Below are positions 14,692-33,967 of a stretch of DNA of 64,000 nt, piece after piece (within the stretch, counting starts at the first letter, position 1; each line of letters begins with the position of its first letter). Location of the stretch: the NCBI GenBank assembly GCA_002724925.1, contig PBQA01000013.1:1-64000 (forward strand), given 5' to 3'. The position numbers were made by a program, and so were the translations under genes. Under the pieces are notes generated by a model, which saw nothing but the letters and a program-made list of their open reading frames with translations, was not told the origin of the DNA and made no database searches. Origin of the DNA: Oceanospirillaceae bacterium (lineage in GTDB: Bacteria; Pseudomonadota; Gammaproteobacteria; Pseudomonadales; Oceanobacteraceae).

Positions 14692-14729
14692 AGCGACTGG
14701 TCTTGATACAAATTGTCAAACCAGTCGCT
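14692..14729. terminator. Long hairpin at the nitrilase/kinase convergence
   Basis: AGCGACTGGT (14692-14701) pairs with ACCAGTCGCT (14720-14729), 10 bp with an 18-base loop. It overlaps the last codons of the minus-strand kinase gene (stop at 14716-14718). No long T-run is present, so it may be a weak bidirectional terminator or an mRNA 3'-end stabiliser. Confidence 0.5.
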
Positions 14730-16446
14730 CGTAGAGTAAGCCCAAAACTAATACCAATAAGATAAAAGAAATCCCTTGCCAGAATTTGACAGGGTCTCGC
14801 TCCATTACTGGCGGACGTGATTTTTGCAGATAAACCGAGTTTGGATTTCTCAGGTCATAAATAAATTCGGACGGTTCTTTGTAGCGCATCTCTCGTTTAG
14901 GGTGGACTGCTTTCTTAATTGCCTCATCTACCCATACAGGAATGGCACGTCCGCAATTTCGCACGGAGGTGTAATGCAGTTTGTTCAGATCCTTACGCTT
15001 GCTGATGCGGGCGACATCTGAGCCGTAAGGTAACCGCCCGGTCAGTAGCTCGTACGTAATTGCACCGAGTGCGTATACATCTGATTCTGTTGAACCCTGC
15101 GCCCCAAGAAAATATTCGGGTGCTGAGTATTGAGCGGTGCCGAGTAACGTCAGGCGTTCCAGTGGTGTATCTATCTCGCTGATGCCGGCCACTCGCGTTG
15201 AACCAAAGTCCAGAATCCGCACAATACCGTCATTACCGATCATTAAATTATCGGGTTTAAGATCTTGATGCAGCATTTCGAGACGATGAAAGGCCTGAAT
15301 GCCACGGGCGGCCTGCTCCATAATTTCTCGCACCTGTTCGAGCGTTGGCTCTGGGTGATCACGCATCCATTGGTCCAGAGTCTGCCCTTCAATGAATTCC
15401 GTTGTGACATAAATGAAGTTGCGAACCCGGTGGGATGGCCCGGGGCGCACGACGTAAGGGCTGTCGATTCTTCTGGCGATCCAGTCCTCCAGCAAGAAGC
15501 GTTCAAGGTAAGCCGTGTTGTCGCGTAATTCCCCTGATGGCGTTTTTAATATCAGTGTTTGCTCGGTTTCACGGTCTTTCGCAAGATAGACGTGACTGCG
15601 TGGGCTGCTGTGTATCTTACGCAGAATGTTATAGCCATCGAAGTTGTCGCGCGCTTTCAATGAGGGAGGGAAGGGCAGCTCGGTCAGTCGTTGATGAACA
15701 TCTTCTTTATTCTGATCAAGCAGGTGATCTATGCGTAAGATCTGGATTGTGAGGTTGTCGTCGCTGTCGTTCTCTCGGGCTGCTTCCAGAATTTCGCGGG
15801 CAGCACGGTCCAGATCGGATGAGTATTGACGGATCGTGCTGATGACCAGCTCGTCGTTAACGAACTCATAAATGCCGTCGGTAGCGCTGATGAAAATATC
15901 ACCGACATTGACCGACACAGACAGGTAGTCAATTTCTAACTGGGTATCCATACCTAAAGCACGGGTCAGGTAGCTTTGGTCTTCGGAGGTATAAAAGCGA
16001 TGGTCGGTGGTCAGTTGCTCCAGTTGATCACCGGTGACTCTGTATACACGACTGTCACCGACGTGAAAAATATGAGCGGTGCGGGATTTAATAACTAACC
16101 CATTAAAAGTGCAGACGTAGCCTTTGTTCGGGTCGTAGCTTCTCAGGTTTCTTCTGGCCTGCGCGTGCAGCCATGAGTTTGTCGCTTCCAGTACACGCAG
16201 CCCCGAGGTTTTTACGGACCAGGCCTCTGAGGTACTGAAATAGTCACTGAGAAAGCTCTGAACTGCGGTTGCGCTGGCGTCCTGGCTGACGTTGCTGCTG
16301 CTGATGCCATCGGCCAATGCCATGGCAACGCCTTTGCTTTCAAGAAGGGGCAGTGTTGGGGTGTGAACGGCGTGAAAGTCCTGGTTAATGGCTTTGACGC
16401 CTTTATCGCTGCATTGACCTGTGCTGACTTTCAGCTGCTCTGACAT
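14716..16446 (-). CDS. Bifunctional PP2C phosphatase / Ser-Thr protein kinase, tail-anchored
   Basis: 576 residues from ATG 16446 (GAGG seven bases upstream; the longer frame to 16491 lacks a ribosome site). Residues ~1-240 form a PP2C phosphatase (NQDFHAVHT, ALADGISSS, HVGDSRVYRV, SATDGIYEFV, DDNLTIQIL). Residues ~270-545 form a protein kinase with the lysine strand TLILKTPS, catalytic loop LHQDLKPDNLM, metal loop ILDFGSTRVAG and YSAPEYF. A single C-terminal membrane segment (FWQGISFILLVLVLGLLYE) anchors it with the enzyme domains in the cytoplasm. It lies 81 bases after the nitrite-transporter gene, apparently one operon. In P. aeruginosa a similar fusion lies in the nitrate assimilation cluster, so a role in nitrite/nitrate uptake control is likely but inferred. 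Confidence 0.93.
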   Translation of the reverse strand: MSEQLKVSTGQCSDKGVKAINQDFHAVHTPTLPLLESKGVAMALADGISSSNVSQDASATAVQSFLSDYFSTSEAWSVKTSGLRVLEATNSWLHAQARRNLRSYDPNKGYVCTFNGLVIKSRTAHIFHVGDSRVYRVTGDQLEQLTTDHRFYTSEDQSYLTRALGMDTQLEIDYLSVSVNVGDIFISATDGIYEFVNDELVISTIRQYSSDLDRAAREILEAARENDSDDNLTIQILRIDHLLDQNKEDVHQRLTELPFPPSLKARDNFDGYNILRKIHSSPRSHVYLAKDRETEQTLILKTPSGELRDNTAYLERFLLEDWIARRIDSPYVVRPGPSHRVRNFIYVTTEFIEGQTLDQWMRDHPEPTLEQVREIMEQAARGIQAFHRLEMLHQDLKPDNLMIGNDGIVRILDFGSTRVAGISEIDTPLERLTLLGTAQYSAPEYFLGAQGSTESDVYALGAITYELLTGRLPYGSDVARISKRKDLNKLHYTSVRNCGRAIPVWVDEAIKKAVHPKREMRYKEPSEFIYDLRNPNSVYLQKSRPPVMERDPVKFWQGISFILLVLVLGLLYERLV

Positions 16447-16527
16447 GGTGTTGCCTCGCAGAAAAAACAAATCTGCCTGTGCAATATGCACAGGCAGAGT
16501 GGATTGCTAACCATAAAAGGGTAGCGT

Positions 16528-17337: not shown

Positions 17338-17384
17338 AGCATTTCCTCATTATTTGGGGGTGTTCTATCGGCTTTAAAATGAAA

Positions 17385-17473
17385 AACGGCGTCGCCCCAG
17401 TCAGTGATTAACCGATGGGTATCGACGCCGTTATCGAATTTTTTCTGAATTTTTTAAGAGCCGCCGTTGGCTC
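17385..17473 (-). promoter_or_regulatory. ANTAR-type antitermination leader (NasR/NasT target) with intrinsic terminator
   Basis: Read on the minus strand, the leader has hairpin P1 GAGCC-AACGGC-GGCTC (plus 17458-17473) and hairpin P2 TCGAT-AACGGC-GTCGA (plus 17422-17437), about 20 bases apart. Both loops are the hexamer AACGGC, with A at loop position 1 and G at position 4, the known signature of RNAs bound by ANTAR proteins. P2 overlaps the 5' arm of a terminator, AACGGCGTCG (17423-17432) with CGACGCCGTT (17385-17394), followed by TTTTCATTTT. P2 and the terminator are mutually exclusive, so an ANTAR protein binding P1-P2 would let transcription reach the transporter gene. The structure is seen directly; the regulator is inferred. 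Confidence 0.85.
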
Positions 17474-17483
17474 AACAGGGACT

Positions 17484-17499
17484 TGCAACCACCGTGCCA
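17484..17499 (-). promoter_or_regulatory. Sigma-54 (RpoN) promoter of the nitrite transporter operon
   Basis: The minus strand reads TGGCACGGTGGTTGCA, matching the sigma-54 consensus TGGCAC-N5-TTGCW with GG and GC ten bases apart. The predicted start of transcription is near 17473, at the first base of hairpin P1 of the attenuator. RpoN itself is encoded at 21741-23303. Confidence 0.88.
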
Positions 17500-17620: not shown

Positions 17621-17645
17621 CAAAAAATGCGCACTAAGTGCGCAT
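17621..17645 (-). terminator. Terminator of yjgA
   Basis: On the minus strand ATGCGCAC-TTA-GTGCGCAT is followed by TTTTTTG (plus ATGCGCAC 17627-17634, GTGCGCAT 17638-17645). It is 47 bases after the yjgA stop and separates yjgA from the transporter promoter. Confidence 0.8.
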
Positions 17646-17691
17646 CTTTATATAAGGGTAAGAGGGACGGGGGGATAACCTGATGAAGAGC

Positions 17692-21740: not shown

Positions 21741-23303
21741 CTAAATCAACTGCTTACGTTCATTCGATGGTGGTATCAGCATAGCCTCGCGGTATTTCGC
21801 TACCGTGCGCCGTGCCACTTTGATGCCCTTTTCACCGAGCATCGTTGCTATCTTGTTGTCACTGAGTGGCTTACGCGTGTTTTCGTCCGCGATCAGTTTC
21901 TTGATCATCGCCCGGATAGCCGTCGATGAACACTCTCCGCCGCTGTCGGTGCTGACGTGGCTGGAGAAAAAGTATTTAAGCTCAAAAATCCCACGTGGGG
22001 TATGCATGTATTTCTGGGTGGTTACCCGAGAGATCGTCGACTCATGCATACCTACGGCTTCGGCGATGTCATGGAGCACAAGTGGCTTCATGCCTTCATC
22101 ACCTTCTTCAAAGAAGTCTATCTGGAATTCAACAATTTTGGTTGCGACTTTGAGCAGAGTGTCATTGCGACTTTGCAGACTTTTAATAAACCAGCGTGCT
22201 TCCTGCAGGTGATCTTTGAGGAAGGTATTGTCAGCACTGCTGTCTGAGCGGCGAATCAGTGATGCGTAGTCGGCATTCACCCGCAGCTTGGGCGCAATCT
22301 CTGGATTCAGCTCAACACGCCACTCGTCTCTGATCTGGCGGACGATGACGTCTGGAATAACGTACTCGGATTCTTCTGAGGCAATGCCTGCACCCGGCTT
22401 CGGGTTAAGCTCTTTGATCAGTCGCATGACTGACTTGAGGTCATCTTCCTTCAATTTTGTGCGGCGCATCAGTGACTGATAGTCGCGACTACCGAGCAGG
22501 TCAATGTGATCACGTATGATCAGCTGCGCTTCGGTGAGCCAGGGGGTGCCCTGAGGCAGTTGATGCAGTTGCAGAAGCAGGCATTCGCGCAGGTCGCGGC
22601 AGAAAACACCCGCCGGATCAAACTGCTGAAGGCGATGCAGAACCGCCATAACTTCTTCTTCTTCGATTTCCAGCGATGGGTCCATCGCTTCAATGACGTC
22701 TTCAACGGTGGTGTGCAGATACCCATCGTCGTCTACGCCATCGATCAGCATGGTAGCGACTTCGCGGTCAGCGTCTGACATGGGCGTCAGGTTGAGCTGC
22801 CAGAGCAGGTGGTCCTGCAGGTTGTCGCTGGTTGCATAGCGCGAGTCGTAGTCGAAGTCTTCGTCAGCGGGGCCGGAGCTGGAGGCAACGCCAGCACTCA
22901 CCTGATAGGTATCTTCCCACTGGCTGTCTACCGGGAGGTCATCAGGCAGTTTTTCGCTCGACCATTGCTCGTCGAGAGACTCCTGTCCACTCTGGTCGTC
23001 GTAGGAGTTATCTTCGTATGAGTTGTCGTAATCCTGATTGTCAGAGGAGGCTTCTCGGCTGTCTCTGTCGTTGTTGTCTGAATCAGAATTGCGGGAATCG
23101 TTATCGGACTCGTTGCCGGAGTCGTTGCCGGAGTCGCTGTTGTCATCAAACTCTTCGCTTTCCAGCATCGGGTTAGAATCCAGCGCTTCCTGAATTTCCT
23201 GTTGCAGGTCCAGTGTGGATAACTGGAGGAGGCGGATGGCCTGTTGCAGCTGGGGCGTCATCGTCAGCTGCTGGCCCATCTTAATCTGAAGGGATGTCTT
23301 CAT
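21741..23303 (-). CDS. rpoN: RNA polymerase sigma-54 factor RpoN
   Basis: 520 residues. Region I is the Gln/Leu-rich start ([19 protein letters not shown]), region II is a long acidic Ser/Asp/Asn tract (about residues 50-100), the core-binding domain follows, and the C-terminus has the HTH and the RpoN box [10 protein letters not shown]. Sigma-54 directs transcription from -24/-12 promoters with enhancer-binding proteins; one such promoter is at 17484-17499. Region II is unusually rich in alternating S/D/N. It follows lptB with a 144-base gap. Confidence 0.98.
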
Positions 23304-32041: not shown

Positions 32042-33346
32042 ATGAGTATTGAAATCCGTCGTTTCCGTTCAGATCAGCCTGACTTTGCGCAGCAGATGGA
32101 TGATTTGCTGGCATGGGAAGCAGTATCCGATAGCGGCGTACAGGAAGCCGTCACCAATATAGTGAACGATGTTCGCAGCCGCGGTGACGAAGCTCTGATC
32201 GAATACACCAACAAATTTGACCGTACCAGTGCCAGTACCATGGCGGACCTTGAGTTGACTCAAGAGCAACTGCAAGCAGCACTGGATGGCCTTGATGACG
32301 CTCAGCGCACAGCACTGATTACCGCGGCCGATCGTGTACGCGATTACCACGAAAAGCAGAAGCAGGATTCCTGGAGCTATACCGAGGCTGACGGCACAGT
32401 GCTGGGTCAAAAGGTCACGCCAATGGACCGTGTCGGTATTTATGTGCCGGGCGGCAAGGCGGCTTACCCTTCATCTGTACTGATGAATGCTATTCCGGCC
32501 CATGTGGCTGGCGTCTCTGAAATCATTATGGTGGTTCCTACGCCTGATGGTCAGCTTAATCAGCTGGTGCTGGCGGCTGCGGCAGCCGCGGGTGTGTCAC
32601 GGGTATTCACTGTGGGTGGCGCACAGGCTGTAGCGGCGTTAGCGTATGGCACTGAAACAGTTCCCGGCGTCGATAAAATTGTCGGCCCGGGCAACATCTT
32701 TGTCGCGACCGCGAAGCGTATGGTATTTGGTCAGGTAGGTATCGACATGATCGCAGGCCCGTCAGAAATCCTCGTAGTCTGCGATGGCGATACTGACCCA
32801 GACTGGATCGCCATGGACCTGTTCTCGCAGGCCGAGCACGATGAAGATGCGCAAAGCATACTGGTTTCGATGGACGAAAACTTCCTCGATCAGGTACAGG
32901 CCAGTATCGAAAAACTGCTGCCGACTATGGAGCGCGAAGAGATCATCCGTAAGTCACTCAGTGACCGAGGCGCGATGATTTTAGCCTCGGGCAAAGAAGA
33001 TGCGCTCAACCTGATCAATCGAATTGCGCCGGAACACCTTGAGCTGTCAGTCGAAGACCCTGACAGCTGGCTGCCGGGTATCCGCCACGCGGGCGCTATC
33101 TTTATGGGACGCTACACGGCGGAAGCCCTCGGCGATTACTGTGCTGGACCAAACCACGTATTACCGACGTCAGGCACGGCACGTTTCTCATCACCGCTGG
33201 GGGTTTATGATTTCCAGAAACGTTCATCGCTGGTGAAATTTTCAGCAGACGGTGCCTCTGAAATGGGCAAAGTGGCTTCTGTGCTGGCGCGTGGTGAGTT
33301 TCTTACCGCTCACGCGCGTTCGGCGGAATACAGAATTAAAGACTGA
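32042..33346 (+). CDS. hisD: Histidinol dehydrogenase
   Basis: 434 residues. Family patterns are [48 protein letters not shown], and the zinc/catalytic region [11 protein letters not shown] with [10 protein letters not shown]. It oxidises histidinol to histidine in two NAD-linked steps. It starts 11 bases after hisG and is closed by a clear terminator. Confidence 0.98.
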
Positions 33347-33366
33347 CGTCTTTTTCTGATTTAAAG

Positions 33367-33390
33367 AGCCCGGCGATGCCGGGCTTTTTT
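33367..33390 (+). terminator. Terminator of the murA-hisGD operon
   Basis: AGCCCGGC (33367-33374), loop GAT, GCCGGGCT (33378-33385), then TTTTT. It separates hisD from hisC. Confidence 0.92.
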
Positions 33391-33967
33391 GTGAGTTTTT
33401 GCAAGGGGCGGGCCCCTTCCGATCCCCCTTTCCGGCGTGATGTCATGATCCTTGTCTCTTGATACCGATTGGGGCACGCCTGCAGCGGCCATCCATGGCC
33501 GCGGGCAGGCTTAACCGGCGTCCTGCCGGTTAGCCCTCATCGTTATCTGCGATCCTGCGGGGTCATCACAAGCCGGGTTTCATCAGCGCTCCGCGGCGAG
33601 GTTGATTGTTACCGAATATGACTTTTGGTGGGTAGTACCCACCCTACGGTAGGGTGCGCATTGCGCCCCATGAGCGAAGCACGGTTTTGCGGACTTAAAT
33701 GCGCCTCTGGGGCCGCCGGGATTTACGCCAGCTTTGCAGGCAACGTGAGGCAGGACGCCGAACGAGGCTCCATACGGGCATGGATGCCCGCCGGAGCCGG
33801 TTGCCGGAAAAGCCAGTAAATATCGGATTTACGGCCCAGAAAGCGCGAAAGCAGGGGGATGGGCCGCCCGCCCTGGGCGGTCCGACGTTTCGGCAAGGTC
33901 CCCCAACAAGGGCATTAAAACCCGGCGGCAGCCAAAGCAGCCCTCCCACCGAAGGTGGCTACCACTG
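33391..33967. repeat. GC-rich non-coding stretch with many palindromes
   Basis: About 580 bases without a credible gene. Clear inverted repeats are GCGGCCAT-CC-ATGGCCGC (33485-33502), AACCGGC-GTCCT-GCCGGTT (33513-33531), GGTGGGTA-G-TACCCACC (33627-33643) and CCCTAC-G-GTAGGG (33642-33654), then further GC-rich repeats such as GGGCCGCCC near 33861. The close packing of palindromes suggests a mosaic of repetitive extragenic elements. Open frames across it (for example 33625-33819) have residue content typical of shadow frames. Confidence 0.55.

Follow-up and report, generated by a model that had tools for sequence, protein, structure and literature searches.

We find that the FNT (formate/nitrite transporter family) gene of the window, the whole 64-kb stretch of DNA analyzed here, is preceded on the minus strand by a sigma-54-type promoter, by two hairpins with the hexaloops typical of ANTAR targets, and by an intrinsic terminator that overlaps the second hairpin. 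This arrangement very probably imposes two successive controls on the gene: sigma-54 polymerase, probably with NtrC, would start transcription under nitrogen limitation, and NasR together with nitrate or nitrite would permit its passage into the FNT gene and the PP2C/kinase gene that follows.

We envisage the following course of events. Under nitrogen limitation, sigma-54 polymerase, activated by an enhancer-binding protein that is most likely NtrC, would start at or next to G17473, a step that we infer from the conservation of the promoter. The nascent RNA would fold hairpin P1, then hairpin P2. With nothing bound, P2 would give way to the more stable terminator as the RNA lengthens, ending transcription. 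Nitrate or nitrite, when present, would bind the NIT domain of the one ANTAR protein of the genome, which is NasR-like; the ANTAR domains would then grip both A1/G4 hexaloops, hold P2, and block the terminator, and with the terminator blocked polymerase would proceed into the genes for the FNT transporter and the PP2C/kinase.

Architecture of the region upstream of the FNT gene

A previous reading made from the sequence only had described TGGCAC-N5-TTGCA, two AACGGC hairpins, and a terminator on the minus strand, all of which we recovered base for base (Table 1). Both hexaloops carry the A1 and G4 that characterize ANTAR leaders. The C of the -12 GC is by convention counted as -12, and applying this rule to the sigma-54 element places the predicted start at G17473, the first base of P1, in agreement with the sequence-only reading, which had located it on the first hairpin. 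That reading had also let the terminator share its 5' arm with the second hairpin. The overlap is real, but the shared part (17432-17423) consists of the P2 loop and the P2 3' arm rather than all of P2. Because of this overlap, P2 and the terminator are mutually exclusive.

Table 1. Features of the FNT locus and related elements in the window
Feature	Positions	Strand	Basis or details
PP2C phosphatase and Ser/Thr kinase fusion	14716..16491	-	PF13672, PF00069
FNT (formate/nitrite transporter family) gene, 269 aa	16528..17337	-	PF01226, E 2e-65
Shine-Dalgarno-like GAGG before the FNT start codon	17345..17348	-	By eye
Intrinsic terminator	17382..17432	-	5' arm AACGGCGUCG (17432-17423) and 3' arm CGACGCCGUU (17394-17385), 10 pairs
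Terminator U run	17386-17382	-	Part of the intrinsic terminator
Hairpin P2, UCGAU-AACGGC-GUCGA, 5 pairs, innermost U-G	17422..17437	-	Fold; relatives
P1-P2 linker, 20 nt, A/U-rich	17438..17457	-	Sequence
Hairpin P1, GAGCC-AACGGC-GGCUC, 5 pairs	17458..17473	-	Fold; relatives
Predicted +1, G17473, first base of P1	17473..17473	-	Inferred from the -12 position
Sigma-54 -24/-12 promoter element TGGCACGGTGGTTGCA, TGGCAC-GGTGG-TTGCA (TGGCAC-N5-TTGCA)	17484..17499	-	Sequence pattern; conserved in relatives
Terminator-like hairpin separating the upstream darP/yjgA gene from the sigma-54 promoter	17623..17649	-	Sequence
rpoN, sigma-54 factor gene	21741..23303	-	NF004595, 750.6 bits; TIGR02395, 520.1 bits

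The leader region is more stably folded than expected (z of -3.65 over 140 nt), and none of 200 shuffled sequences was equally stable. An RNA ending at the 3' end of P2 folds into P1 and P2 (-11.7 kcal/mol). For the complete leader, the best fold that retains both hairpins reaches -24.8 kcal/mol versus -37.2 kcal/mol once the terminator forms. P2 can thus form first but loses out to the terminator unless something holds it, as in the general ANTAR model set out in the consulted part of PMC3369931. The pair that closes the loop is C:G in P1 and U-G in P2; among 18 aligned leaders, the P2 closing pair is U-G in 14 and C-G in 4. This differs from the C:G closing pair favored in NasR SELEX, according to the portion of PMC7496416 used here, although the latter is a preference and not strictly defining.

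The sigma-54 promoter and its activator

Searching the 64-kb window with the sigma-54 consensus, we obtained an exact TGGCACNNNNNTTGCW match solely at 17499-17484 on the minus strand, with five one-mismatch matches elsewhere; the core GG-N10-GC is present in TGGCAC-N5-TTGCA at this site. We then considered a family sample of 44 genomes, 34 of which had an FNT match; one of these, G002, has an FNT fragment and was excluded from the family count. Among the 33 genomes with a complete FNT gene, a sigma-54-type site conforming to one pattern lies upstream in 32, and the remaining genome (G012) has a looser TGGCATGCATTTGGCA, still GG-N10-GC, upstream of FNT. The element is therefore kept before orthologous genes, and the gene for RpoN itself lies in the window, both of which support its assignment as a sigma-54 promoter.

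Control of this promoter by nitrogen status had been put forward in the sequence-only reading, and the protein part of that proposal holds: besides RpoN in the window, a full-length NtrC is encoded elsewhere in the genome (757.5 bits, above cut-off). The corresponding site was not found, however, since no palindrome resembling the NtrC-binding motif GCAC-N7-GTGC (at most one mismatch) is present in the 250 bases upstream in this genome and its two closest relatives. This absence, together with four further NtrC-like proteins in the genome (268 to 428 bits), leaves room for an alternative in which the ANTAR leader stands as described and the sigma-54 promoter is driven by another enhancer-binding protein, for example a sensor of nitrite, NO, or formate, so that the first gate would not read general nitrogen status. 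We consider this alternative unlikely. NtrC-like sites at the same stringency occur upstream of 17 of the 33 family FNT promoters versus 2.0 expected, full-length NtrC is present, and genes for a nitrate-type ABC transporter follow the second leader of this genome (see below). NtrC thus stays our favored candidate for the activator.

FNT and PP2C/kinase genes downstream of the leader

The transporter belongs to Pfam family PF01226, so the earlier designation as a nitrite transporter is sound at the level of the FNT family. It does not extend to the subfamily: the protein scores 53.9 bits with the NCBIfam NirC model (cut-off, 293) and 136 bits with FocA, below cut-off for NirC, FocA, and the subfamily fnt, and LCIA and FocA rank above NirC among its PDB matches. 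We therefore use "nitrite transporter" as an FNT-family assignment only, nitrite being a candidate substrate. The FocA score exceeding that of NirC, even if both are under their cut-offs, and the PDB ranking would suit a channel for formate or another anion, whose regulation would serve something besides nitrite uptake. Such a role seems improbable to us, given that nitrate-assimilation operons have a matching promoter and leader and that nasR lies beside the FNT gene in relatives; a function in nitrite uptake is the one that we prefer.

The PP2C/kinase fusion is separated from the FNT gene by 36 bases as listed, although its true start may lie further in, and the two genes are likely cotranscribed. 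An FNT gene followed by a PP2C/kinase-type gene was also seen in L067, L068, and L070, the three relatives whose surroundings were listed. In addition, a second PP2C/kinase fusion is found in the genome under study after a gene for a NarK-type MFS transporter (L126:4581-7865); this kinase type is therefore paired with both FNT and NarK-type transporters.

Conservation and covariation of the leader

A leader composed of P1, P2, and terminator lies between the promoter and the FNT gene in three genera (g1, g6, and g8). No leader was found in genera g4 and g7, where the promoter is ∼60 to 90 bases from the FNT gene. Three genomes of g6 (G014, G015, and G020) have kept the sigma-54-type site, and their leader before FNT is degenerate and lacks a U-run terminator. 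These three loci (L014, L015, and L020) have a common CAACGACGTTG stretch after the degenerate leader.

Of the 20 leaders measured (from 19 genomes), 18 have P1 beginning 0 to 8 nt past the predicted start; in the other two the distance is 11 and 25 nt. The linker is 7 to 40 nt long among the leaders of relatives. This range contrasts with the loss of EutV function upon lengthening of the linker by 20 nt, as given in the excerpted text of PMC8934654, and we count it against our preferred interpretation.

For covariation, we aligned 18 of the 21 leader rows (alignment A2), leaving out G043, in which P1 is unclear, the row for the second FNT copy in G018, whose P2 is atypical, and G035, which hardly differs from G037. 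The alignment at no stage contained the degenerate leaders of G014, G015, and G020. With the structure P1 plus P2, 93.3% of cells were paired and 7 of 10 pairs had changed on both sides (4 of 5 in P1 and 3 of 5 in P2); with P1 plus terminator, 93.7% were paired and 7 of 15 pairs had changed on both sides. Cells with a double change numbered 34 versus 10.2 in shuffles for P1 plus P2, and 33 versus 11.3 for P1 plus terminator. None of 500 shuffles reached the observed paired percentage, double-change cells, or covariation score, and slid controls were far lower than either structure. The number of pairs with change on both sides was reached by 6 of 500 shuffles (P1 plus P2) and 1 of 500 (P1 plus terminator). 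Further pair types showed no clear excess over shuffles, being matched by 101 and 52 of 500, respectively.

These rows come from scans that accepted a hairpin only with A1, G4, and no fewer than 4 of its 5 pairs, and a terminator only with 6 or more contiguous pairs plus U's. The paired percentages and the covariation are therefore in part a product of the selection. That A1 and G4 are invariant over the 18 rows was a requirement of the scan and is no evidence. Unlike the covariation of leaders picked by the scan, model R2, which was trained on nine leaders all from other genera, constitutes an independent test. R2 found the window site with 63.7 bits (E of 3.2e-11, in ∼101 kb) and also retrieved a second leader of this genome at an E of 1e-4. 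Model R1, trained on 18 family leaders, is not independent for the family.

Association of the leader with ANTAR proteins

The sequence-only reading had proposed a NasR/NasT-type sensor and, as a check, a search of the genome for nasT/nasR and nasS. There is one ANTAR match in the genome, a NIT-ANTAR protein of 423 aa in which a NIT domain (PF08376, E of 5e-52) is fused to an ANTAR domain (PF03861, E of 5e-20). This domain composition makes it of the NasR type and not NasT. A sensor of this type works on its own and does not require NasS. Among PDB entries, the NIT-ANTAR protein is best matched by 4akk, annotated as "nitrate regulatory protein" (E of 8e-55), with an alignment spanning both domains; we take this entry to be NasR of Klebsiella oxytoca. 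The single NIT-ANTAR protein is the predicted binding partner of the leader. Its gene is on another contig than the leader, and it adjoins the FNT gene in relatives such as G040 and G018.

The leader and the ANTAR gene occur together. An ANTAR gene is present in all 20 family genomes called leader bearing, including G043, in which P1 was not identified, and in the 3 genomes with a degenerate leader. Among the 10 FNT genomes without a leader, 6 have no ANTAR gene (one of them, G024, being 71% complete) and 4, all from g7, have an ANTAR protein of NasT size. At an E of ≤0.001, R1 matched 19 family genomes, all with ANTAR, and none of the 13 without it (Fisher P of 1e-4, ignoring relatedness). 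In a class sample of 369 genomes, R1 matched 35, this genome included, and ANTAR was present in 35 of these 35 compared to 79 of the 334 without a match (Fisher P of 2e-20, ignoring relatedness and taking the R1-match and ANTAR counts as one and the same sample). G028 has a leader and an ANTAR frame of merely 206 aa, so NasT-size ANTAR proteins may serve such leaders too.

Since no other fold approaches the terminator in stability, since A/G hexaloop hairpins with 4 or 5 of 5 pairs arise by chance (many were listed), and since hairpin picking contributed part of the covariation signal, one could see here a plain intrinsic terminator next to a coincidental pair of hexaloop hairpins and free of ANTAR control, a reading that is extremely improbable in view of the recovery of the site by R2 from other genera, the restriction of leader-model matches to ANTAR genomes (35/35 in the class sample and 20/20 family leader calls), and the position of the hairpins between the sigma-54 site and the gene in each family leader. 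A genome-wide search with a 7-base hexaloop pattern was uninformative (2,990 matches versus 2,704 in the reversed control).

A second leader and the wider set of targets

The second leader in this genome (C21:120175-120279; R1 E of 1.4e-5) has hexaloops AATGGC and AAAGGC, a terminator, and TGGCACGGTGCTTGTA upstream, with GT replacing the -12 GC. It is followed by genes for a substrate-binding protein (NMT1_2), a permease, and an ATPase, the latter two of the nitrate type but with only the ATPase scoring above its cut-off, which we assign by their domains as nrtABC-like. The next R1 match in the genome has an E of 0.04. The two clear leaders in one genome point to a small NasR regulon that is amenable to testing.

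From the R1 scan of the class sample, we read 29 loci besides that of the window, out of 37 such matches; one of the 29, L152, has no recognisable P1. Defining the first gene as the longest frame on the same strand with a start no more than 400 bases away, we found NMT1_2 (NrtA-like) proteins at 18 loci and pyridine-nucleotide reductases (NirB-like N terminus) at 7. Each of the other four has a different product: a molybdopterin oxidoreductase, a porin-like protein, an MFS transporter, or a protein without assignment. These Pfam names are not nitrate specific. FNT was the following gene at none of the 29 loci. A sigma-54-type site was present within 60 bases upstream at 14 of the 29 loci, versus 1.0 in base shuffles, and absent there at the other 15.

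On L126, nirB (position 1574) is preceded, at a distance of ∼125 to 70 bases, by the sigma-54-type sequence TGGCACTCATATTGCT and a single hairpin with an AACGGC hexaloop; no terminator is evident there. This hairpin is possibly a relic, or NasR may act on it in some other way close to the ribosome site.

Comparison with known systems

Recognition of P1/P2 by ANTAR proteins is established (consulted parts of PMC3369931, PMC7496416, and PMC8934654). In Enterococcus faecalis, the EutV targets have P1/P2 hexaloops with A1 and G4, and P2 overlaps the terminator (excerpts of PMC3369931). The hairpin layout is alike in the window; the E. faecalis system differs in its ethanolamine signal and in its response-regulator ANTAR protein, the candidate regulator of the window leader being a NIT-ANTAR protein. 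The nasF leader of K. oxytoca, the target of the NIT-ANTAR protein NasR, has two hexaloop hairpins, the second overlapping the terminator (sections used of PMC3369931 and PMC7496416), and its first gate is general nitrogen control through NtrA, NtrB, and NtrC (portion used of PMC5424462). The window resembles this system in the NasR type, the hairpin layout, and the predicted nitrogen gate and differs in its target, which is nasFEDCBA in K. oxytoca and an FNT transporter plus a PP2C/kinase gene here.

Another point of comparison is provided by Pseudomonas, the organism of nalA. The nalA leader of nirBD combines a sigma-54, NtrC-dependent promoter with antitermination by NasT (as summarized in the passages used of review PMC12830290), and the Azotobacter vinelandii nasAB leader is likewise antiterminated by NasT (passages used of PMC12316311). 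Both rely on NasS-NasT and have other targets, whereas the window is of the NasR type. Furthermore, the covariance search of Ramesh et al. (2012) placed predicted ANTAR targets upstream of various nitrogen genes, those for transporters of nitrate and nitrite among them (PMC3369931, in part).

The combination of sigma-54 with NasR/NasT control advanced in the sequence-only reading is thus supported, with two-gate control already in print for nitrate-assimilation operons; the window is a new case of an established mechanism. The parts of PMC5424462, PMC3369931, and PMC8014003 used here describe no NasR operon made of a nitrite transporter and a Ser/Thr kinase, which is a thin basis for priority. 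What the locus would add is the placement of dual control by nitrogen status and nitrate on an FNT channel and a signaling phosphatase/kinase.

Relationship to the Rfam narK RNA

The sequence-only reading had suggested searching with ANTAR/NasR leader models. R2 finds the site, as described above, but Rfam returned nothing at the window leader at gathering score. The best Rfam match of the leader is the narK RNA (RF03032), aligned over model positions 1 to 72 of 72 with 26.8 bits; this is below the gathering score of 43.2, and we treat it as a lead only and do not count the leader as a member of RF03032. The RF03032 consensus begins with GGCaCAgcucUUGCU, and its unpaired 5' part, GGCaC-N5-UUGCU, reads GG-N10-GC, the sigma-54 spacing. 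There follow an AACGGC hairpin and then CGAC-AAAGAC-GUCG. Rfam types this family as a cis-regulatory RNA and gives it a consensus structure with P1 only; the window leader has P1 and P2.

A class sample of 274 genomes gave 13 hits to the narK model, spread over 12 genomes, 2 of which were over the cut-off. Read by eye, 12 of the 13 hits contain a P1 with an A1/G4 hexaloop, and 7 of these 12 start with GG-N10-GC. ANTAR is present in 11 of the 12 matching genomes; the exception, G144, holds hit L088, which looks like a chance match. In the family scan, 5 of the 44 genomes gave narK matches, all of them under the cut-off; with the setting used there, the present genome was not among them.

These features suggest that the narK RNA corresponds to a sigma-54-plus-ANTAR module. 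It is probably not a stand-alone RNA: its 5' part would be sigma-54 promoter DNA and its paired part a P1/P2 target of NasR or NasT, with promoter and P1 forming one module that reads nitrogen status and nitrate back to back and that, in the family studied here, is also placed before FNT and PP2C/kinase genes, leader and ANTAR gene tracking each other. In 19 of 20 family leaders the recruitment hairpin P1 lies within the first nucleotides made by the polymerase, its onset being 0 to 11 nt after the predicted start. Our literature search, which covered few subscription papers, found no description of narK RNA or RF03032. This proposal would give a curated Rfam family a concrete, testable identity, and part of that "RNA" may be promoter DNA.

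A subthreshold narK hit elsewhere in the window (33343-33414, minus strand, 29.0 bits) overlaps the end of hisD. It has a sigma-54-like start and no A1/G4 hexaloop in P1, and is probably due to chance. Because it outscores the leader (29.0 versus 26.8 bits), the narK score by itself cannot tell the two apart. Rfam also reports a TwoAYGGAY RNA (RF01731) at 33472-33537 on the minus strand, where it fills part of the gap separating hisD from hisC (both named by eye) on the strand opposite to these genes, with 44.7 bits (gathering score, 43) over model positions 44 to 113 of 168 only.
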